Of a DNA stretch of 46,376 bases, positions 28,699 to 37,577 are shown piece by piece (within the stretch, counting starts at the first letter, position 1; each line of letters starts with the position of its first letter). The stretch spans positions 9,554 through 55,929 of the forward strand of contig NZ_AOIO01000009.1 in NCBI RefSeq assembly GCF_000337555.1, read 5' to 3'. A model generated the notes under the pieces. It did no database searches, was not told the origin of the DNA, and saw nothing but the letters and a program-made list of their open reading frames with translations. The translations under genes were made by a program, and so were the position numbers. This DNA comes from Natrialba asiatica DSM 12278 (lineage in GTDB: Archaea; Halobacteriota; Halobacteria; Halobacteriales; Natrialbaceae).

Positions 28699-29889
28699 AT
28701 GACGCGAAACGTTGCCATCGTCGGCGGCGGACAGGCAAACTGGGGCGAACGAGACGCAACCTGGAAGGATCTCGCACAGGAGGGCGGCAAGGCGACGTTC
28801 GACGCGGTTCCCGGTGTCGACCCTGACGACATCGAGGGGCTGTTCGTCGGCGCGGTCCAGCCCGAACGATTTGCCAACCAGACCCACGTCGCGCCCATGG
28901 TCGCCGAACTCCTCGGAATCGAGGTCGACGAAATGATCGCCCGAACTGAACTCGCGTGTGCGAGCGGGCAGGCCGCGCTGCGATATGCGTGGCTGGCGAT
29001 CGCGGCCGGGCAGCTCGACGTCGCGATGGTACTCGGCGTCGAGAAGATGAACCTCGGGCGCGAGCACATGCCGGAGGTGCAGTCGTCGATGGCGAACGTC
29101 TTAGACCGCGAGTTCGACGGCGCCAACGGGCTGGCCGCGCCGCCGTTCTTCGCGTGGTACGCCCAGCGCCACATGCACGAGTTCGGGACGACCCGCGAGC
29201 AGCTCTCGCTGGTCGCCGCGAAGAACAAGACGAACGCCTCCCGGACGGACTTCGCCCAGTTCCAGTCGACGGTCGACCCCGACGAGGTGACCGACTCGCC
29301 GGAGATCGCGCCGCCGTTGCACCTCTACGACTGCAGCGGTATCACGGACGGTGCGGCCGGCGCGATCCTGATGAGCGAGGCGAAAGCCCGCGAGGTGACC
29401 GACACCGCAGCCTGGATCACCGGCAGCGGGCAGTCCACGATGGCGGGGAACTCGATCAACAACCTGCCGTCGTTCAGCGGCTGGCCGCAGGCCCGCAAGG
29501 CATCGCAGAACGCGTACGACCAGGCCGGAATCGACGACCCACTGGCCGAAATCGACGTGGCGGAGGTCCACGACTGCTTCTCGATCAGCGAGATCATCGA
29601 GTACGAAGAACTCGGCTTCGCCGAGCGCGGCGAAGGCGGCCAGTTCATCGAGGACGGCCGCAGTCACCTCGACGGCGACGTTGCAGTCAATCCGCGCGGC
29701 GGGCTCCTCGGCTGCGGCCATCCGCTCGGCGCAACGGGCGTCTCGCAGGCCCTCGAGATCACCCAGCAGTTCCAGGGCGACGTGACGAACGATCGGCAGG
29801 TAGACGACGCGACGACCGGTCTCATCCACAATCTCAGCGGGAGCGGCTCGGTTCACAGCGTCATGGTCCTCGACCGTGATCCACAATGA
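28699..29889 (+). CDS. Thiolase, SCPx-type acetyl-CoA C-acyltransferase
   Basis: 396 residues. The nucleophilic cysteine is in TELACASGQAALR (C87). The other active-site residues are in EVHDCFSISE (H291) and GGLLGCGHPLGATGVSQ (H341). The sequence has the archaeal SCPx-like pattern, not the FadA pattern. It cleaves 3-ketoacyl-CoA with CoA, or condenses acyl-CoAs in reverse. It starts 7 bases after the dehydrogenase/hydratase gene and overlaps the DUF35 gene by 4 bases (ATGA). Archaeal thiolases of this type commonly act with a DUF35 partner that bridges CoA intermediates. Confidence 0.93.
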   Translation: MTRNVAIVGGGQANWGERDATWKDLAQEGGKATFDAVPGVDPDDIEGLFVGAVQPERFANQTHVAPMVAELLGIEVDEMIARTELACASGQAALRYAWLAIAAGQLDVAMVLGVEKMNLGREHMPEVQSSMANVLDREFDGANGLAAPPFFAWYAQRHMHEFGTTREQLSLVAAKNKTNASRTDFAQFQSTVDPDEVTDSPEIAPPLHLYDCSGITDGAAGAILMSEAKAREVTDTAAWITGSGQSTMAGNSINNLPSFSGWPQARKASQNAYDQAGIDDPLAEIDVAEVHDCFSISEIIEYEELGFAERGEGGQFIEDGRSHLDGDVAVNPRGGLLGCGHPLGATGVSQALEITQQFQGDVTNDRQVDDATTGLIHNLSGSGSVHSVMVLDRDPQ

Positions 29890-30374
29890 CTGATACTTCG
29901 ACCGACGACGAGCGAGAACAGGTTTCGGTCCCCTCGGAGATCGAGTTCCCCCGACTGCTCGACTTCTACGACCTGCAGACGGCGGACCAGACCCAGATCC
30001 ACGAGTTCTACGACAATCTTCGAGCGGGACAGTTCACGACGACGCGATGTACCGAGTGCGACGCGATCCACTTCCCGCCGCGCATCGTCTGTCCCGAGTG
30101 TACCGGCGACGCCCTCGAGTACGTCGATCTCCCGCACGACGGTGAACTCTTCGCCTTCTCGGCGGTCCGCGGCGGGCTTCCGCTCGGATTGCGCGAGCAC
30201 GAGGTGCCGTACGTCGTCGGCGTCGTCGACCTGGGTCCCGTCCAGCTCTCGGGTCGAATCGACGACGCGGCCTACTCCGACCTCGAGATCGGCGATCCGG
30301 TCTCGCTGAAGATCGTCGACATCGACGGGCCGACCGACGACGACCGCGTCTTCTACCGGTTCGAGCCGCAGTAA
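29886..30374 (+). CDS. DUF35 Zn-ribbon/OB-fold protein, thiolase partner
   Basis: 162 residues. An N-terminal helical part precedes a rubredoxin-like zinc ribbon with cysteines 55, 58, 69 and 72 (TRCTECDA, IVCPECTG), and an OB-fold follows (ELFAFSAVRGGLPLGLREHE, PYVVGVVDLGPVQLSGRIDD). This is the standard DUF35 (OB-fold, acyl-CoA-associated) layout. Known members bind acyl-CoA and form a complex with thiolases. Its start overlaps the thiolase stop, which supports a tight stoichiometric complex. It is the last gene of the beta-oxidation operon. Confidence 0.92.
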   Translation: MTDTSTDDEREQVSVPSEIEFPRLLDFYDLQTADQTQIHEFYDNLRAGQFTTTRCTECDAIHFPPRIVCPECTGDALEYVDLPHDGELFAFSAVRGGLPLGLREHEVPYVVGVVDLGPVQLSGRIDDAAYSDLEIGDPVSLKIVDIDGPTDDDRVFYRFEPQ

Positions 30375-32325: not shown

Positions 32326-33450
32326 ATGACAAACAGCGACTCCGGGGGTTCACGCCGAGAAACGCCGCTCGAGGGGGCGACAGCCGAGTTCATCGCCGAG
32401 CGCGACGGCAACTATGCACAGAATCTCGAGTACGTCCTCGAGAAGTGGACTGACTGGTGTGCCGACCAGGATGTACGGACACTCGACGACGTGACACCGC
32501 TGACGATGCGCCACTATGCGTCGTCTCTCAAGCGGCGCTCGAAGACCGCCGACGGAGACGGAATTAGCGCGTCGACAGCCCGGACGTACTATAACTACGT
32601 TTCAGCGCTATTAACGTGGGCCGTCGAGGTCGAGTATCTCCCTGAAAACCCGGCCGAAAAACGGAAAGCAAAGAAACCGCTGCCGACTGCACGGACCAAC
32701 AGCGGCGAGCAGCAGTTCTGGCAGCCCGAACAACGGCACGCGATCATCAATTACGTCGACGAACGTGCCCGCGAGGCGATCGATGAGCGAGGGACCGACG
32801 CTTTCGAAGCAATTCGCAACCGAACGCTGATTACCGTTCTCGCCTACACCGGCGTTCGGGGGTCGGAGGTCCTTGCCGACTACCGCGACGAGCGACGGAA
32901 CGGGTTGCGGTGGGGCGACGTCGATCTCGAAAACGGCGTCATTACGGTCCTCGGCAAGAGCCAAAATCCGAACGAGGAAGTCGGGCTTACGGGGCAGACA
33001 ATCGAACCGTTACAGCGACTGCAGACACTTCTTGACTCGCCCGCGAACTCGTGGCCGGTATTCCCCTCCCGACACCCGCCATCGTTGTACGAGAACATCC
33101 GTGCTGCAGGACACGACGTTCCAGATGGCGATCCCTGGGAATTCATGCTCGAAAACGGTATCGAACCGCCCTCGATGAGCACATCCGGAGCGCGGACGGT
33201 GCTGAAACGGCTTTCTAGCGAAGCACCCATCCCCGATCTGGATACGGAAAACGGCGAGTACCTTACCCTCCACGGTGCACGCCGTGGCGTCGGTGAGGCG
33301 CTTTTCAGAGAGCACGGCGCACAACGCGCCCAACGAACGCTCCGACACGCCGATCCGAAGACGACCTCACAGATGTACTCCCACATCGAAGCGAGTGAAC
33401 TCGGGGAGGCCAATACGGCGGTGTTCGACGACGAATCCGATTCACACTGA
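32326..33450 (+). CDS. Tyrosine recombinase/phage-type integrase
   Basis: 374 residues. An N-terminal SAM-like core-binding domain (about 15-110; QNLEYVLEKWTDWCADQDVR, TARTYYNYVSALLTWAVEVE) precedes the catalytic domain. The catalytic set is readable: Arg178 in AYTGVRGSEVL, His316 and Arg319 in LHGARRGVGE, His341 in LRHADPKTT, and Tyr361 in SQMYSHIEASEL. Archaeal family members integrate or excise plasmids and proviruses, or resolve dimers. It is preceded by about 1 kb of AT-rich DNA and a regulator pseudogene and followed by metabolic genes. No partner excisionase or att repeats are evident, so it may be a leftover of a mobile element. Confidence 0.92.
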   Translation: MTNSDSGGSRRETPLEGATAEFIAERDGNYAQNLEYVLEKWTDWCADQDVRTLDDVTPLTMRHYASSLKRRSKTADGDGISASTARTYYNYVSALLTWAVEVEYLPENPAEKRKAKKPLPTARTNSGEQQFWQPEQRHAIINYVDERAREAIDERGTDAFEAIRNRTLITVLAYTGVRGSEVLADYRDERRNGLRWGDVDLENGVITVLGKSQNPNEEVGLTGQTIEPLQRLQTLLDSPANSWPVFPSRHPPSLYENIRAAGHDVPDGDPWEFMLENGIEPPSMSTSGARTVLKRLSSEAPIPDLDTENGEYLTLHGARRGVGEALFREHGAQRAQRTLRHADPKTTSQMYSHIEASELGEANTAVFDDESDSH

Positions 33451-33577: not shown

Positions 33578-34450
33578 ATGAGCGGGGAATCCGACACACA
33601 CAACAGTATCGAACCACCCGAGCTCACCGCCGATTTGATCCATCACATCGACGATCCGCGGTTTACCAGTGAGAACGTGGCGATCGTGACTGGCGCAGCG
33701 TCGGGGATCGGTCGTGCGACGGCGCTCGTCTTGGCGGCAAATGGCTTGACAACGATCGCAACCGATGTCGATGAGAACGGTCTCCACGAGACGGCCGAGA
33801 AAGCGGACGGCCTCGCAGTCAAGGGGGACCTCAAGACGGTCGCATGTAATCTGACTGACGACGCCGAGATCGAGGCACTCGTCGAGACGGCCGCCGATGC
33901 GGGACAGCTTCGGTACGTCGCAAATATCGCTGGCATACAGCACATCTCGCCGATCGCGTCGTTCCCGATGGAGACGTTCGACTCGCTCTACCAGGTGATG
34001 CTCCGCGCGCCGATGTATCTCACGAAACTGGCGCTTCCACACATCCGCGAGGCCGAAGATGGCGTCGGTGCCATCGCCAACATGGCGTCCGTCCACGGTC
34101 ACTACGTGACCCGCGATAAGGTCGCCTACAACACGATGAAATTCGGCCTTCGAGGGCTTACCAGGTCGACTGCGGCCGAAGGTGACGGCGATATCCGTGC
34201 GTTCACGGTCAGCACGGGCTACGTCAAGACACCGCTCGTCCTGGACCAGATTGCGGATACGGCCGAAGAACGCGGTATTACCGAGCGAGAGGTCGTCGAG
34301 GACGTGATGCTCGGGCAGGCTCGGACCTCCGAGATGATGGCGCCGGTCGAGGCGGGCAACCTGTTCGCTTTCGGGCTCTCACGCCACGGCAAACACCTTA
34401 ACGGCGGTGACTTGCTCTGGGACGGCGGCTTCGTGAACACGTACGAGTGA
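33578..34450 (+). CDS. SDR-family dehydrogenase, 3-hydroxybutyrate dehydrogenase-like
   Basis: 290 residues. NAD(P) motif VTGAASGIGRA (TGxxxGIG at 38-45), NIAGIQ in place of NNAG, catalytic Ser171 (NMASVHGHY) and Tyr184/Lys188 (YNTMK). The C-terminal half has STGYVKTPLVLDQIADTAEE and RGITEREVVEDVMLG, the lid region typical of D-3-hydroxybutyrate dehydrogenases, and ends in GGDLLWDGGFV. It would oxidise 3-hydroxybutyrate or a similar 3-hydroxyacid to the ketoacid. It is followed on the same strand by a sodium symporter cassette, which could import the substrate. Assignment of the exact substrate is inference. Confidence 0.82.
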   Translation: MSGESDTHNSIEPPELTADLIHHIDDPRFTSENVAIVTGAASGIGRATALVLAANGLTTIATDVDENGLHETAEKADGLAVKGDLKTVACNLTDDAEIEALVETAADAGQLRYVANIAGIQHISPIASFPMETFDSLYQVMLRAPMYLTKLALPHIREAEDGVGAIANMASVHGHYVTRDKVAYNTMKFGLRGLTRSTAAEGDGDIRAFTVSTGYVKTPLVLDQIADTAEERGITEREVVEDVMLGQARTSEMMAPVEAGNLFAFGLSRHGKHLNGGDLLWDGGFVNTYE

Positions 34451-34540: not shown

Positions 34541-35044
34541 ATGTTAGACGGCGAGATCGATGTCGGGGGAATAACCTCGGAACTGATGCTCGCAAGCGGC
34601 GTTCTATGGACTGCCGTGCTCGGACTCGGGCTGGCCGGCTATTGGTTCGTCGCCTTGCTCGTCTCGGTGTTTCTCTTTCATCCGTGGTTCATCATCGGCG
34701 CGAGTTCAAACGGGACGATTTCGACGAAGTTGCTCGTCTATCCCCTCGGAATATGGACCGGACTCCAGCTATCGGCGTTCGTCCTGACCGAGTACTACTC
34801 GAACGCGTTCGCAGGCAGCTCACCGGCGTTTCTGGTCACCGGCATGCATCCGTCCTTCGCCGCCGTCTACTGGCTCTACTGGGTCGGTGGGTTCATGACG
34901 ATCACCCTCGGCTACGGGATTTACTTCCGCAAACACTTCCTGCCGGAAGGGGAGTGGGACCGGTTCCTCGATGAAGTCGAGCGGGTGAACGCAGAGAGCG
35001 AGAGACCGGAAGCCGACGAGGCTGTCGAGGTGCGTAATCAATGA
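34541..35044 (+). CDS. Small membrane subunit accompanying sodium:solute symporter
   Basis: 167 residues with about four helices: MLASGVLWTAVLGLGLAGYW, VALLVSVFLFHPWFIIGASS, TKLLVYPLGIWTGLQLSAFV and FAAVYWLYWVGGFMTITLGY, then a charged cytoplasmic tail. The stop overlaps the symporter ATG (ATGA, 35041-35044), so the two are coupled. Some bacterial SSS transporters need a small membrane partner. This protein is longer than the DUF485 or DUF997 partners I know and I cannot place it in either. A role as symporter subunit is inferred from coupling. Confidence 0.75.
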   Translation: MLDGEIDVGGITSELMLASGVLWTAVLGLGLAGYWFVALLVSVFLFHPWFIIGASSNGTISTKLLVYPLGIWTGLQLSAFVLTEYYSNAFAGSSPAFLVTGMHPSFAAVYWLYWVGGFMTITLGYGIYFRKHFLPEGEWDRFLDEVERVNAESERPEADEAVEVRNQ

Positions 35045-36555
35045 TCGACTTGCTCGTTCCCGGCTTCGTCGCGTTGTTTATCCTCTCGGTGTTCGCTGTC
35101 GGTCTCTACAGCAAGCGCCTGATCGACTCCTCCGACGAGTTCTACGGTGCGACGAAGATGTTCGGTGCGGCGGTCATCACCCTGGCGAGTATGTCCGGGG
35201 TCATGAGCGCCTTCGGATTTATCGGCGGTCCGGGGCTCGTCTACCAGATGGGCACGTCCTCGCTGTGGATGACCTTCGCCAGTGGCCTCGGGTTCGCAAT
35301 GGCCTATTGGATCGTCGGGAAGCGCGTCCGCGGAATGGCCGATGTCGCCGACATCGGCACGCTCGGGGACATCGCCGACGAGCGGTTCAACAGCGGCGCG
35401 ATCCGCGGGATACTCGCAGTGATTCTCTTTATCGCGTGTTGGGCGTACCTCGCCTCGCAGGTCGCTGGCGGCGGCTACGTCCTCTCGGTAATCCTCGGTA
35501 TCTCGATGGAGACCGCCGTCTGGCTCGTGTTCGGCCTGATCATCGTCTACGTTGCCGTCGGTGGCATGGCGTCGGCCCAGCTTGCGGGAGCGTACACGGG
35601 CGCGGTGATGCTCGTGGGCGTCGTCGGCGTCGTCGTCGGGTTCTTCCAGATCGCCGGCGGGATGGAAAACACGACGATGACCGTCGTCGAGGCCGGCGAA
35701 CTCACCGGCGCAGATGTGACGAAGGCGTTTGCTCCCCAGATGCTCGACGGCTGGGGGCTCGCCGAAGAGTCTGCACCTGGCCTGCTATTGATCTGGCCGG
35801 TCGTCTTCAGTATCGGCGTCATGGGACAGCCACAGGTCCTCCAACGAATGTTTTCGATCGACGATCCGAAGGGGCTGCGAACCGTCGGCCTCGTCAGCGG
35901 TGTCACCTATGCTGTGGGGAGCATCCTCTGGTTGCTCATCGGTTTCGTTGCGCTCTACCTGGTTGCGTCCGGAAGCGTCGAACCGCTCGCAGACCCCGAC
36001 ATGGCCGCCTTCGAGTTCGTCGATCGGTTGCACATCGTCTTACAGATGGTCATTTACGCGGGGCTGGTCGCTGCGATAATGTCCACCGCGGCGTTTTTCC
36101 TCTCGGTCGCCTCCGGCGCGATCGCCCGCGACTTCGTGCGGGCGATGGGCTGGGAGGTTTCCGAACAGCGGGAAACGTGGCTGGGACGAGCGGCGGTCCT
36201 CGTCGTCGGCGTTGGCTCGGTGATCTTCGGCCTGTACGGCGGCCACCTCGTCGCGATCCTCGGGACCTTCGGCTGGGGCACGTTCGTTAGCGGGACGATC
36301 CCTGCTGTGGTCGTCGGGCTGCTCTGGAAAGGCGCGAGTAGAGAGGGCGTTACTGCTGGACTTGCCGCGTCGCTCCTCCTCAACGTCACGCTGCTGGCTG
36401 CGACACAGCTCGGGTACGCGTTCCCGATCGGGATGGACTTTTACTTCATCGCGATCTCCGTTTCGATCGCCGTGACGATCTTCGTCTCGTATCTGACCGA
36501 AGGGGCCAGCGGCGAGAACGTCCCAGAACATGTTAAACCGATCTTCAAACTCTAA
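35041..36555 (+). CDS. Sodium:solute symporter family transporter
   Basis: 504 residues, about thirteen helices. SSS features: DSSDEFYGATKMFGAAVITL with ASMSGVMSAFGFIGGPG (helix 1 broken region), YLASQVAGGGYVLSVILGIS, the conserved VYVAVGGMASAQLAGAYTGA, VMGQPQVLQRMFSI, and MSTAAFFLSVASGAIARDF near the Na+ site. It moves a solute, probably an organic acid, with sodium into the cell. It lies between a coupled small membrane gene and a 23-residue membrane microprotein, downstream of the hydroxybutyrate dehydrogenase-like gene. Ligand identity is not readable. Confidence 0.92.
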   Translation: MIDLLVPGFVALFILSVFAVGLYSKRLIDSSDEFYGATKMFGAAVITLASMSGVMSAFGFIGGPGLVYQMGTSSLWMTFASGLGFAMAYWIVGKRVRGMADVADIGTLGDIADERFNSGAIRGILAVILFIACWAYLASQVAGGGYVLSVILGISMETAVWLVFGLIIVYVAVGGMASAQLAGAYTGAVMLVGVVGVVVGFFQIAGGMENTTMTVVEAGELTGADVTKAFAPQMLDGWGLAEESAPGLLLIWPVVFSIGVMGQPQVLQRMFSIDDPKGLRTVGLVSGVTYAVGSILWLLIGFVALYLVASGSVEPLADPDMAAFEFVDRLHIVLQMVIYAGLVAAIMSTAAFFLSVASGAIARDFVRAMGWEVSEQRETWLGRAAVLVVGVGSVIFGLYGGHLVAILGTFGWGTFVSGTIPAVVVGLLWKGASREGVTAGLAASLLLNVTLLAATQLGYAFPIGMDFYFIAISVSIAVTIFVSYLTEGASGENVPEHVKPIFKL

Positions 36556-36569
36556 CGGAGGTGAGAGAT

Positions 36570-36641
36570 ATGGAACTCTGGCTCGTCGGCTTCGTCGCGA
36601 TGATGGTGATCAACCTGATCGTTCTCTTCTTGAAAATATAG
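36570..36641 (+). CDS. 23-residue single-helix membrane microprotein
   Basis: An ORF of 24 codons encoding one hydrophobic helix (MELWLVGFVAMMVINLIVLF and three more residues, LKI). It begins 15 bases after the symporter stop and is preceded by GGAGGTGA (36558-36565), a perfect Shine-Dalgarno at a usable distance. That is striking in a genome where many genes are leaderless. The synteny and ribosome site make it a credible third component of the transporter unit, perhaps a stabilising or regulatory helix. It would be missed by gene finders with a length cut-off. Confidence 0.7.
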   Translation: MELWLVGFVAMMVINLIVLFLKI

Positions 36642-36842
36642 GCGGCTCCCCGCTGGTTTTCCCCTGCGCTCACCGCGGTTGTGATCTATTTTCCGAACGA
36701 CTGCGCGACCGCGAATCGTCTCTCGGGAAAGCACCTTCCGAGTTCGGACATCGATCCCTCTACGACGGCAATAACATGATCCGATCACTCCTCGGAGCAA
36801 CTACGGGTTTCTACCGCTTCTGATCGGTCGACACGTCACCCT

Positions 36843-37577
36843 CTAATCCCATCCTTCGTCTTCTAACTCCATCTGAGCTTCGACGTCGTTCATCACGCGA
36901 ACAACTCGGCGGAGAACCTTTCGCTGGCTCCGGCGAAGGTTCTTCGAGGCACCCATCTTCGAGATGTCGAACTCCGCAGCAACGTCGTCTAGGGTCGCTC
37001 CCCGCGGCGTCGAAAAATACCCCTTCTCGACTGCAGCCTCGAGCGTATCGCGCTCCCTGTCCGTCAGATTCTGGAGCGCTCGAAGCATCGAACCGACGGA
37101 TTCGACGTTCTGAAGGATATCGAAGAAGTCGTCGATATGGATCGAATCGTTACCCTTGATCGTGAACTCGTTCGAAGCATCGAGTTCTGAGAGCGCGTCT
37201 TCTGCCGACTTCGATCTATCGAAGCCGACGTTCCAGATTTCACTGCCGTTTCGAATCACGAACGGACCGGTCACATAGCCGGCGTTCTCACGAATCGTCT
37301 GCATGGCGTCAGTTTCGCCGATCCGCGAACGGACGAGCGCCGTATTCTGTTTCCGAGACAGGAGTTCGTACCCCCGAAGCATCTCGTAGCCGTTGAGCGT
37401 CTCGAGTGCGCCGTGTAACTCTTCCGGGCTCTCCCCGATCACGAGCAACCGTGTCTCGAGCGTCCGATCCGCCTGATTGAAATCCCAGTGTTGGGTGTGA
37501 AAGGCGACATCGTGTTCTCGAGTGGTCCGAATGTACGGACAATCGTACTGGACCATGTCAAGCTTTAGCGCATTCAT
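36843..37577 (-). CDS. HTH-10 (bacterio-opsin activator-like) transcriptional regulator
   Basis: 244 residues. The C-terminal HTH_10 domain (about 185-240) reads LTDRERDTLEAAVEKGYFST, PRGATLDDVAAEFDISKMGA, SKNLRRSQRKVLRRVV, typical of Bat-type haloarchaeal activators. The N-terminal about 170 residues form a Bat-like ligand/sensor region without membrane helices. The gene converges on the symporter operon across a 200-base gap and is the nearest candidate regulator for it. The first residues are MNALKLDMVQYDCPYIRTTR; an ATG seven codons in is also possible. Confidence 0.88.
   Translation of the reverse strand: MNALKLDMVQYDCPYIRTTREHDVAFHTQHWDFNQADRTLETRLLVIGESPEELHGALETLNGYEMLRGYELLSRKQNTALVRSRIGETDAMQTIRENAGYVTGPFVIRNGSEIWNVGFDRSKSAEDALSELDASNEFTIKGNDSIHIDDFFDILQNVESVGSMLRALQNLTDRERDTLEAAVEKGYFSTPRGATLDDVAAEFDISKMGASKNLRRSQRKVLRRVVRVMNDVEAQMELEDEGWD

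Follow-up and report, generated by a model that had tools for sequence, protein, structure and literature searches.

The window analysed here, a stretch of 46,376 nucleotides from Natrialba asiatica DSM 12278, holds a reading frame of only 23 codons directly behind the gene of a sodium:solute symporter, and it raises the question of whether so short a frame encodes a protein and, if so, whether that protein belongs to the transporter. The features concerned are the following.

33578 to 34450, + strand: SDR dehydrogenase, a conserved neighbour of the unit; 3-hydroxybutyrate dehydrogenase is the best model for its ortholog in locus L006
34541 to 35044, + strand: four-helix membrane protein, 167 aa, the upstream partner of the symporter (open reading frame read; no Pfam or NCBIfam family)
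35041 to 36555, + strand: sodium:solute symporter, 504 aa, SSF, PF00474 (open reading frame read; Pfam match)
36557 to 36564, + strand: Shine-Dalgarno sequence GGAGGTGA, 5 nt before the ATG; its GGAGGT core is present in all relatives
36570 to 36641, + strand: single-helix microprotein MELWLVGFVAMMVINLIVLFLKI, 23 aa, stop included in the coordinates (conservation, synonymous bias, conservation ending at the stop)
36843 to 37577, - strand: convergent HTH_10 regulator of the bacterio-opsin activator type, which ends the wider cluster in most loci

A sequence-only reading of this DNA had described the four-helix gene as ATGA-coupled to the symporter and the small frame as preceded by a ribosome site, and both descriptions are exact: the stop of the four-helix gene overlaps the start of the symporter in the ATGA at 35041-35044, and a 5-nt spacer separates GGAGGTGA at 36557-36564 from the ATG at 36570, whose frame, read directly in the sequence, closes with TAG at 36639-36641. 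As the first pair is coupled through the ATGA and the microprotein has a strong Shine-Dalgarno sequence of its own, the three genes are probably carried on one message and translated together. We propose, as the likely reading of the sequence though well short of a certain one, that 34541-36641 is a three-gene transport unit in which the peptide serves a three-part Na+:solute symporter as its single-helix accessory subunit.

The 23-residue frame as a gene

Taken by itself, GGAGGTGA is not rare, occurring three times in the window where 1.8 occurrences are expected. The combination of a Shine-Dalgarno sequence with a hydrophobic micro-ORF within 120 nt is found at 0.4-0.6% of random positions, and MELWLVGFVAMMVINLIVLFLKI has a mean Kyte-Doolittle value of 2.7 over residues 3-21. 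Nucleotide identity among the relatives is 0.90 within the frame, 0.34 over the next 72 nt and about 0.25 further on, the background being reached within about 35 nt past the stop. Independent sequence pairs differ in the microprotein frame by 20 synonymous and 16 nonsynonymous changes, where 25% would be synonymous under neutrality (p=1e-4).

It is conceivable that the frame arose by chance on DNA conserved for another reason, for example because the symporter message has a 3' UTR or RNA element there, and the shortness of this DNA and the near identity of its closest copies do leave few substitutions to count. The synonymous bias is nevertheless specific to one frame, frames +1 and +2 of the same region showing none (p=0.33 and 1.0), and both the frame and its stop survive a two-codon length change close to the peptide N-terminus in L059/L060 as well as changes of 1 nt in the spacer between Shine-Dalgarno sequence and ATG, all of which makes a chance frame the least probable of the explanations considered here. 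By the sequence evidence of open frame, conservation, frame-specific selection and linkage, 36570-36641 is a genuine gene, the product of which is predicted to be translated and inserted into the membrane. The conserved residues are not significantly concentrated on any one face of the helix (p=0.34-0.40), so that no binding surface is demonstrated by the sequence itself.

Existing resources contain little trace of this gene. The 23-aa microprotein has zero matches among the Pfam and NCBIfam family models, and the gene is absent from the annotation of the public records checked (two annotated plasmid records); the Natronomonas pharaonis PL131 plasmid record lists nothing at its position, in a PLSDB gene table that is itself incomplete. 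In Halocatena marina (L063, 8014-8208, - strand) an antisense 'hypothetical protein' is annotated over the conserved microprotein gene and is probably a spurious call. As this is a very short conserved membrane-protein gene, unannotated in the records checked and provided with a clear partner, the function of the peptide is directly testable.

Linkage to the symporter and the changing neighbourhood

Relatives were collected with the four-helix protein as query, ignoring the microprotein, and yet at all recovered loci the microprotein lies directly behind the symporter with a strong Shine-Dalgarno sequence. These loci (L002-L004, L005, L006-L011 and L056-L060, each with the four-helix gene and the microprotein) represent seven named genera, Natrialba, Natrinema, Haloterrigena, Haloarcula, Natronolimnohabitans, Halocatena and Natronomonas, as well as a Natrialbaceae archaeon and further genomes, and the Natronomonas pharaonis copy resides on plasmid PL131. 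The most divergent pair, L059/L060, with a symporter about 75% identical, carries a 25-aa form of the microprotein, MELPLWLIGFVGMVLINLIVAFMKI; the Halocatena form is MIWLIGFVAMIVVTLIVLFSKI. In class-wide samples of 382 and 391, the four-helix gene, the symporter orthologs (E<=1e-100) and the strong peptide matches (E<1e-10) fall in the same 8 genomes, and no strong peptide match was found outside them. The four-helix gene also occurs in a ninth genome, G387, whose contig is that of L003 and includes the microprotein. Two extra peptide matches (E=0.05-0.08) and one extra four-helix match (E=1e-3) are at chance level, and a weak four-helix match in G260 (L020/L061) is likewise due to chance, being a short broken frame with no adjoining symporter ORF. 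Conservation of the small frame behind orthologous symporters, on which the sequence-only reading had made its proposal depend, was thus found in every orthologous locus examined, and the three-gene unit with its microprotein is real, being conserved and strictly linked. Separately, Haloterrigena sp. H1 has a second copy of the unit (L005, 6501-8015) in which the symporter is frameshifted and the SDR match is split, and the microprotein ORF is intact.

The usual gene order in the relatives is SDR, four-helix protein, symporter, peptide, thiolase, OB-fold DUF35 protein, CoA-transferase A and B, and the convergent HTH_10 regulator. The window and N. aegyptia (L002) lack the enzyme block and have the regulator alone behind the microprotein, so that the thiolase, DUF35 and two CoA-transferase genes of L006 (8332-11664) have no counterpart in the interval 36641-36843 of the window lineage. 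Elsewhere the microprotein is followed directly by the CoA-transferases (N. pharaonis), by the SDR (L059/L060) or by an unrelated gene that reads as ProC-like (L057). A distant thiolase/OB pair, 33-37% identical, is present in the window at 28699-30374.

In L005-L011 the thiolase gene lies about 140-300 nt beyond the frame, which could mean that the frame works as a leader regulating the downstream thiolase and CoA-transferase genes, or couples their translation, rather than encoding a functional protein. We consider this improbable, as the frame is kept, identical or nearly so, where there are no thiolase genes (the window, L002) or where other genes follow (L057-L060), and as its substitutions are biased to synonymous ones and its C-terminus is conserved. 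A microprotein that keeps its place while the next gene changes from HTH_10 to thiolase, CoA-transferase, SDR or an unrelated gene would serve the transporter and not the gene behind it.

The same observations bear on the proposal that the microprotein, though translated and placed in the membrane, acts elsewhere, for example on a membrane protease or another transporter, and merely shares a transcript with the symporter. A single hydrophobic helix may pair with many different proteins, and the other membrane protein of the operon, with its four transmembrane helices, could be the true one; yet linkage to the symporter is strict across changing downstream genes, and strong peptide matches are confined to genomes with this symporter. 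An action elsewhere is therefore unlikely, though it deserves more weight than a leader or a chance frame. As every relative examined has the peptide together with the symporter and the four-helix protein, we favour a subunit of the importer as its probable identity. Such a peptide would most likely insert as one membrane helix and bind the outside of the symporter, or of the complex of symporter and four-helix protein, as a permanent small subunit; its task would be to stabilise or localise the carrier, in the manner of MAP17 with human SGLT2.

The neighbouring genes offer some indication of the substrate. In L006 the best model for the SDR is 3-hydroxybutyrate dehydrogenase TIGR01963 (207 bits, under its cut-off). 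The CoA-transferases of this locus are of the 3-oxoacid/glutaconate type by their matches, and a ChsH2-type OB protein accompanies the thiolase, itself a thiolase-domain protein. As the catabolic cluster combines a 3-hydroxybutyrate-dehydrogenase-like SDR, a thiolase with its DUF35/OB-fold protein, two CoA-transferase subunits and an HTH_10 regulator, the substrate has about an even chance of being a short-chain 3-hydroxy or 3-oxo acid, which would be taken up, oxidised, activated with CoA and cleaved by thiolysis. The assignment is weaker for the window lineage, since the cluster lacks its enzyme genes there. A tyrosine recombinase/integrase gene lies immediately upstream of the SDR in the window (32326-33450); together with the copies on plasmids of N. 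pharaonis and Halocatena and the presence of the cluster in about 2% of genomes, it suggests that the cluster is mobile.

The symporter, its four-helix partner and small partners in the family

The 504-aa symporter matches SSF (PF00474, E=2.1e-36) above the gathering score, residues 34-441 aligning with positions 1-403 of the 406 in the profile, and is by family a Na+:solute symporter for which Na+-coupled transport is predicted. As the symporter alignment found no solved-structure profile at 1e-6, the assignment rests on Pfam. The protein lies under the curated NCBIfam cut-offs for the PutP, PanF, ActP and MctP equivalogs, the best being TIGR02121 PutP with 118 bits against 515.5. Its 167-aa partner (34541-35044) has zero Pfam families at E<=1 and no relevant NCBIfam match. 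AlphaFold gives it long helices at 12-31, 35-54, 62-89 and 104-133 and a C-terminal helix, with low confidence (pLDDT 63), and comparison of this model, which is too weak for the purpose, with the PDB yielded nothing at E<=0.001 (best E=1.3).

Small partners are common among the symporters of this class. In a survey of 131 SSF genes from 39 haloarchaeal genomes, 91 had a coupled small transmembrane ORF upstream in a loose scan that includes some spurious frames; the types comprise DUF4212, DUF3311 and several unnamed one-helix and four-helix proteins. Downstream partners were few, with about eight of the 131 having a small coupled transmembrane ORF there, and a Shine-Dalgarno sequence with a hydrophobic micro-ORF was found at six of the 131, against the 0.4-0.6% of random positions given above. 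In the window genome four of the five SSF genes have a small coupled partner, among them one DUF4212/TIGR03647 and one DUF3311 protein at other symporters. Together with the window peptide, these counts suggest that accessory helices are the rule in the SSS family and not the exception.

A FastTree tree places the window symporters in one clade (support 100), which groups (99) with two others, one having a different four-helix partner and the other a one-helix partner of 55-61 aa. The four-helix partners of the former (157-208 aa, no Pfam match, upstream of the SSF gene in L114, L119, L121, L122, L131, L133 and L143) are not detectably homologous to the window protein (hhalign probability 1.4%). 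No equivalent downstream peptide was found in these sister clades, and symporters of this type can therefore exist without one.

Comparison with known systems

The sequence-only reading knew of no helix of this kind for archaeal SSS transporters, which is only partly right, as NCBIfam NF045580 (symport_access, symporter small accessory protein) already describes one from methanogens; the haloarchaeal peptide family itself is new. Of 393 genomes sampled from the phylum, 142 contain a match to the NF045580 model, of 33 positions, above its membership cut-off of 35 bits, and each of the 30 methanogen loci fetched has an SSF ORF just after the peptide. Like the window peptide, it is an archaeal single-helix microprotein adjoining an SSF gene, and the two share an I/L-W-L/I motif near the helix start, an acidic N-end and a basic C-end. 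In contrast, the NF045580 peptide lies directly upstream of its symporter and the window peptide behind, and the motifs DPQIWxAY and C-terminal W-N of the former are absent from the latter. The model does not match any of three haloarchaeal peptide variants even at E<=10, nor the genome of the window at E<=0.001, and it has no strong match in the sampled Halobacteria; homology between the two peptides is not detectable (hhalign probability 0.2%). As the haloarchaeal peptide falls short of the model and the profiles do not align, it is by analogy, and not as an established member of NF045580, that this peptide probably works like a symporter accessory protein. The kind of arrangement is thus already known, and the peptide family is new. 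Our literature search returned nothing on the exact NCBI family name, on DUF4212 with a symporter or on archaeal single-helix symporter proteins.

A bolder reading, which we hold a little below an even chance, is that of an obligate three-subunit archaeal Na+ symporter, an SSF carrier needing both the four-helix partner and a 23-residue subunit from a peptide family unrelated to NF045580; if true, SSS transporters acquired their one-helix subunits independently on several occasions.

Other arrangements resemble parts of the three-gene unit. The TIGR03647/DUF4212 and DUF3311 partners are, like the 167-aa protein, small membrane proteins ATGA-coupled upstream of SSF genes, but that protein is predicted to have four helices and neither model matches it. 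ATGA-coupled microproteins of 33-42 aa (L184, L190, L191, L192 and L195) form a second group, which is, like the window peptide, hydrophobic and placed directly behind a haloarchaeal SSF gene; it differs in the LxWGS motif that most members carry and in belonging to a distant, divergent symporter clade, and it weakly resembles NCBIfam NF038354 (putative transporter small subunit). In M. mazei, the trimethylamine permease operon encodes a membrane microprotein that Ribo-seq and tagging showed to be translated and membrane-associated, and a role as permease subunit was proposed for it (PMC11456600). The best-known case of an accessory helix in the transporter family of the window symporter is human SGLT2, for which a subunit of one helix is proven and which requires this one-helix protein, MAP17; the MAP17 helix packs on TM13, and MAP17 is thought to support the folding and localisation of SGLT2 (PMC10803289). 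MAP17 (PDZK1IP1) is longer than the window peptide, has extra-membrane parts and is encoded by an unlinked, eukaryotic gene, and we claim no homology; what the two would have in common is the role of a one-helix accessory to an SSS-family (SLC5) transporter.
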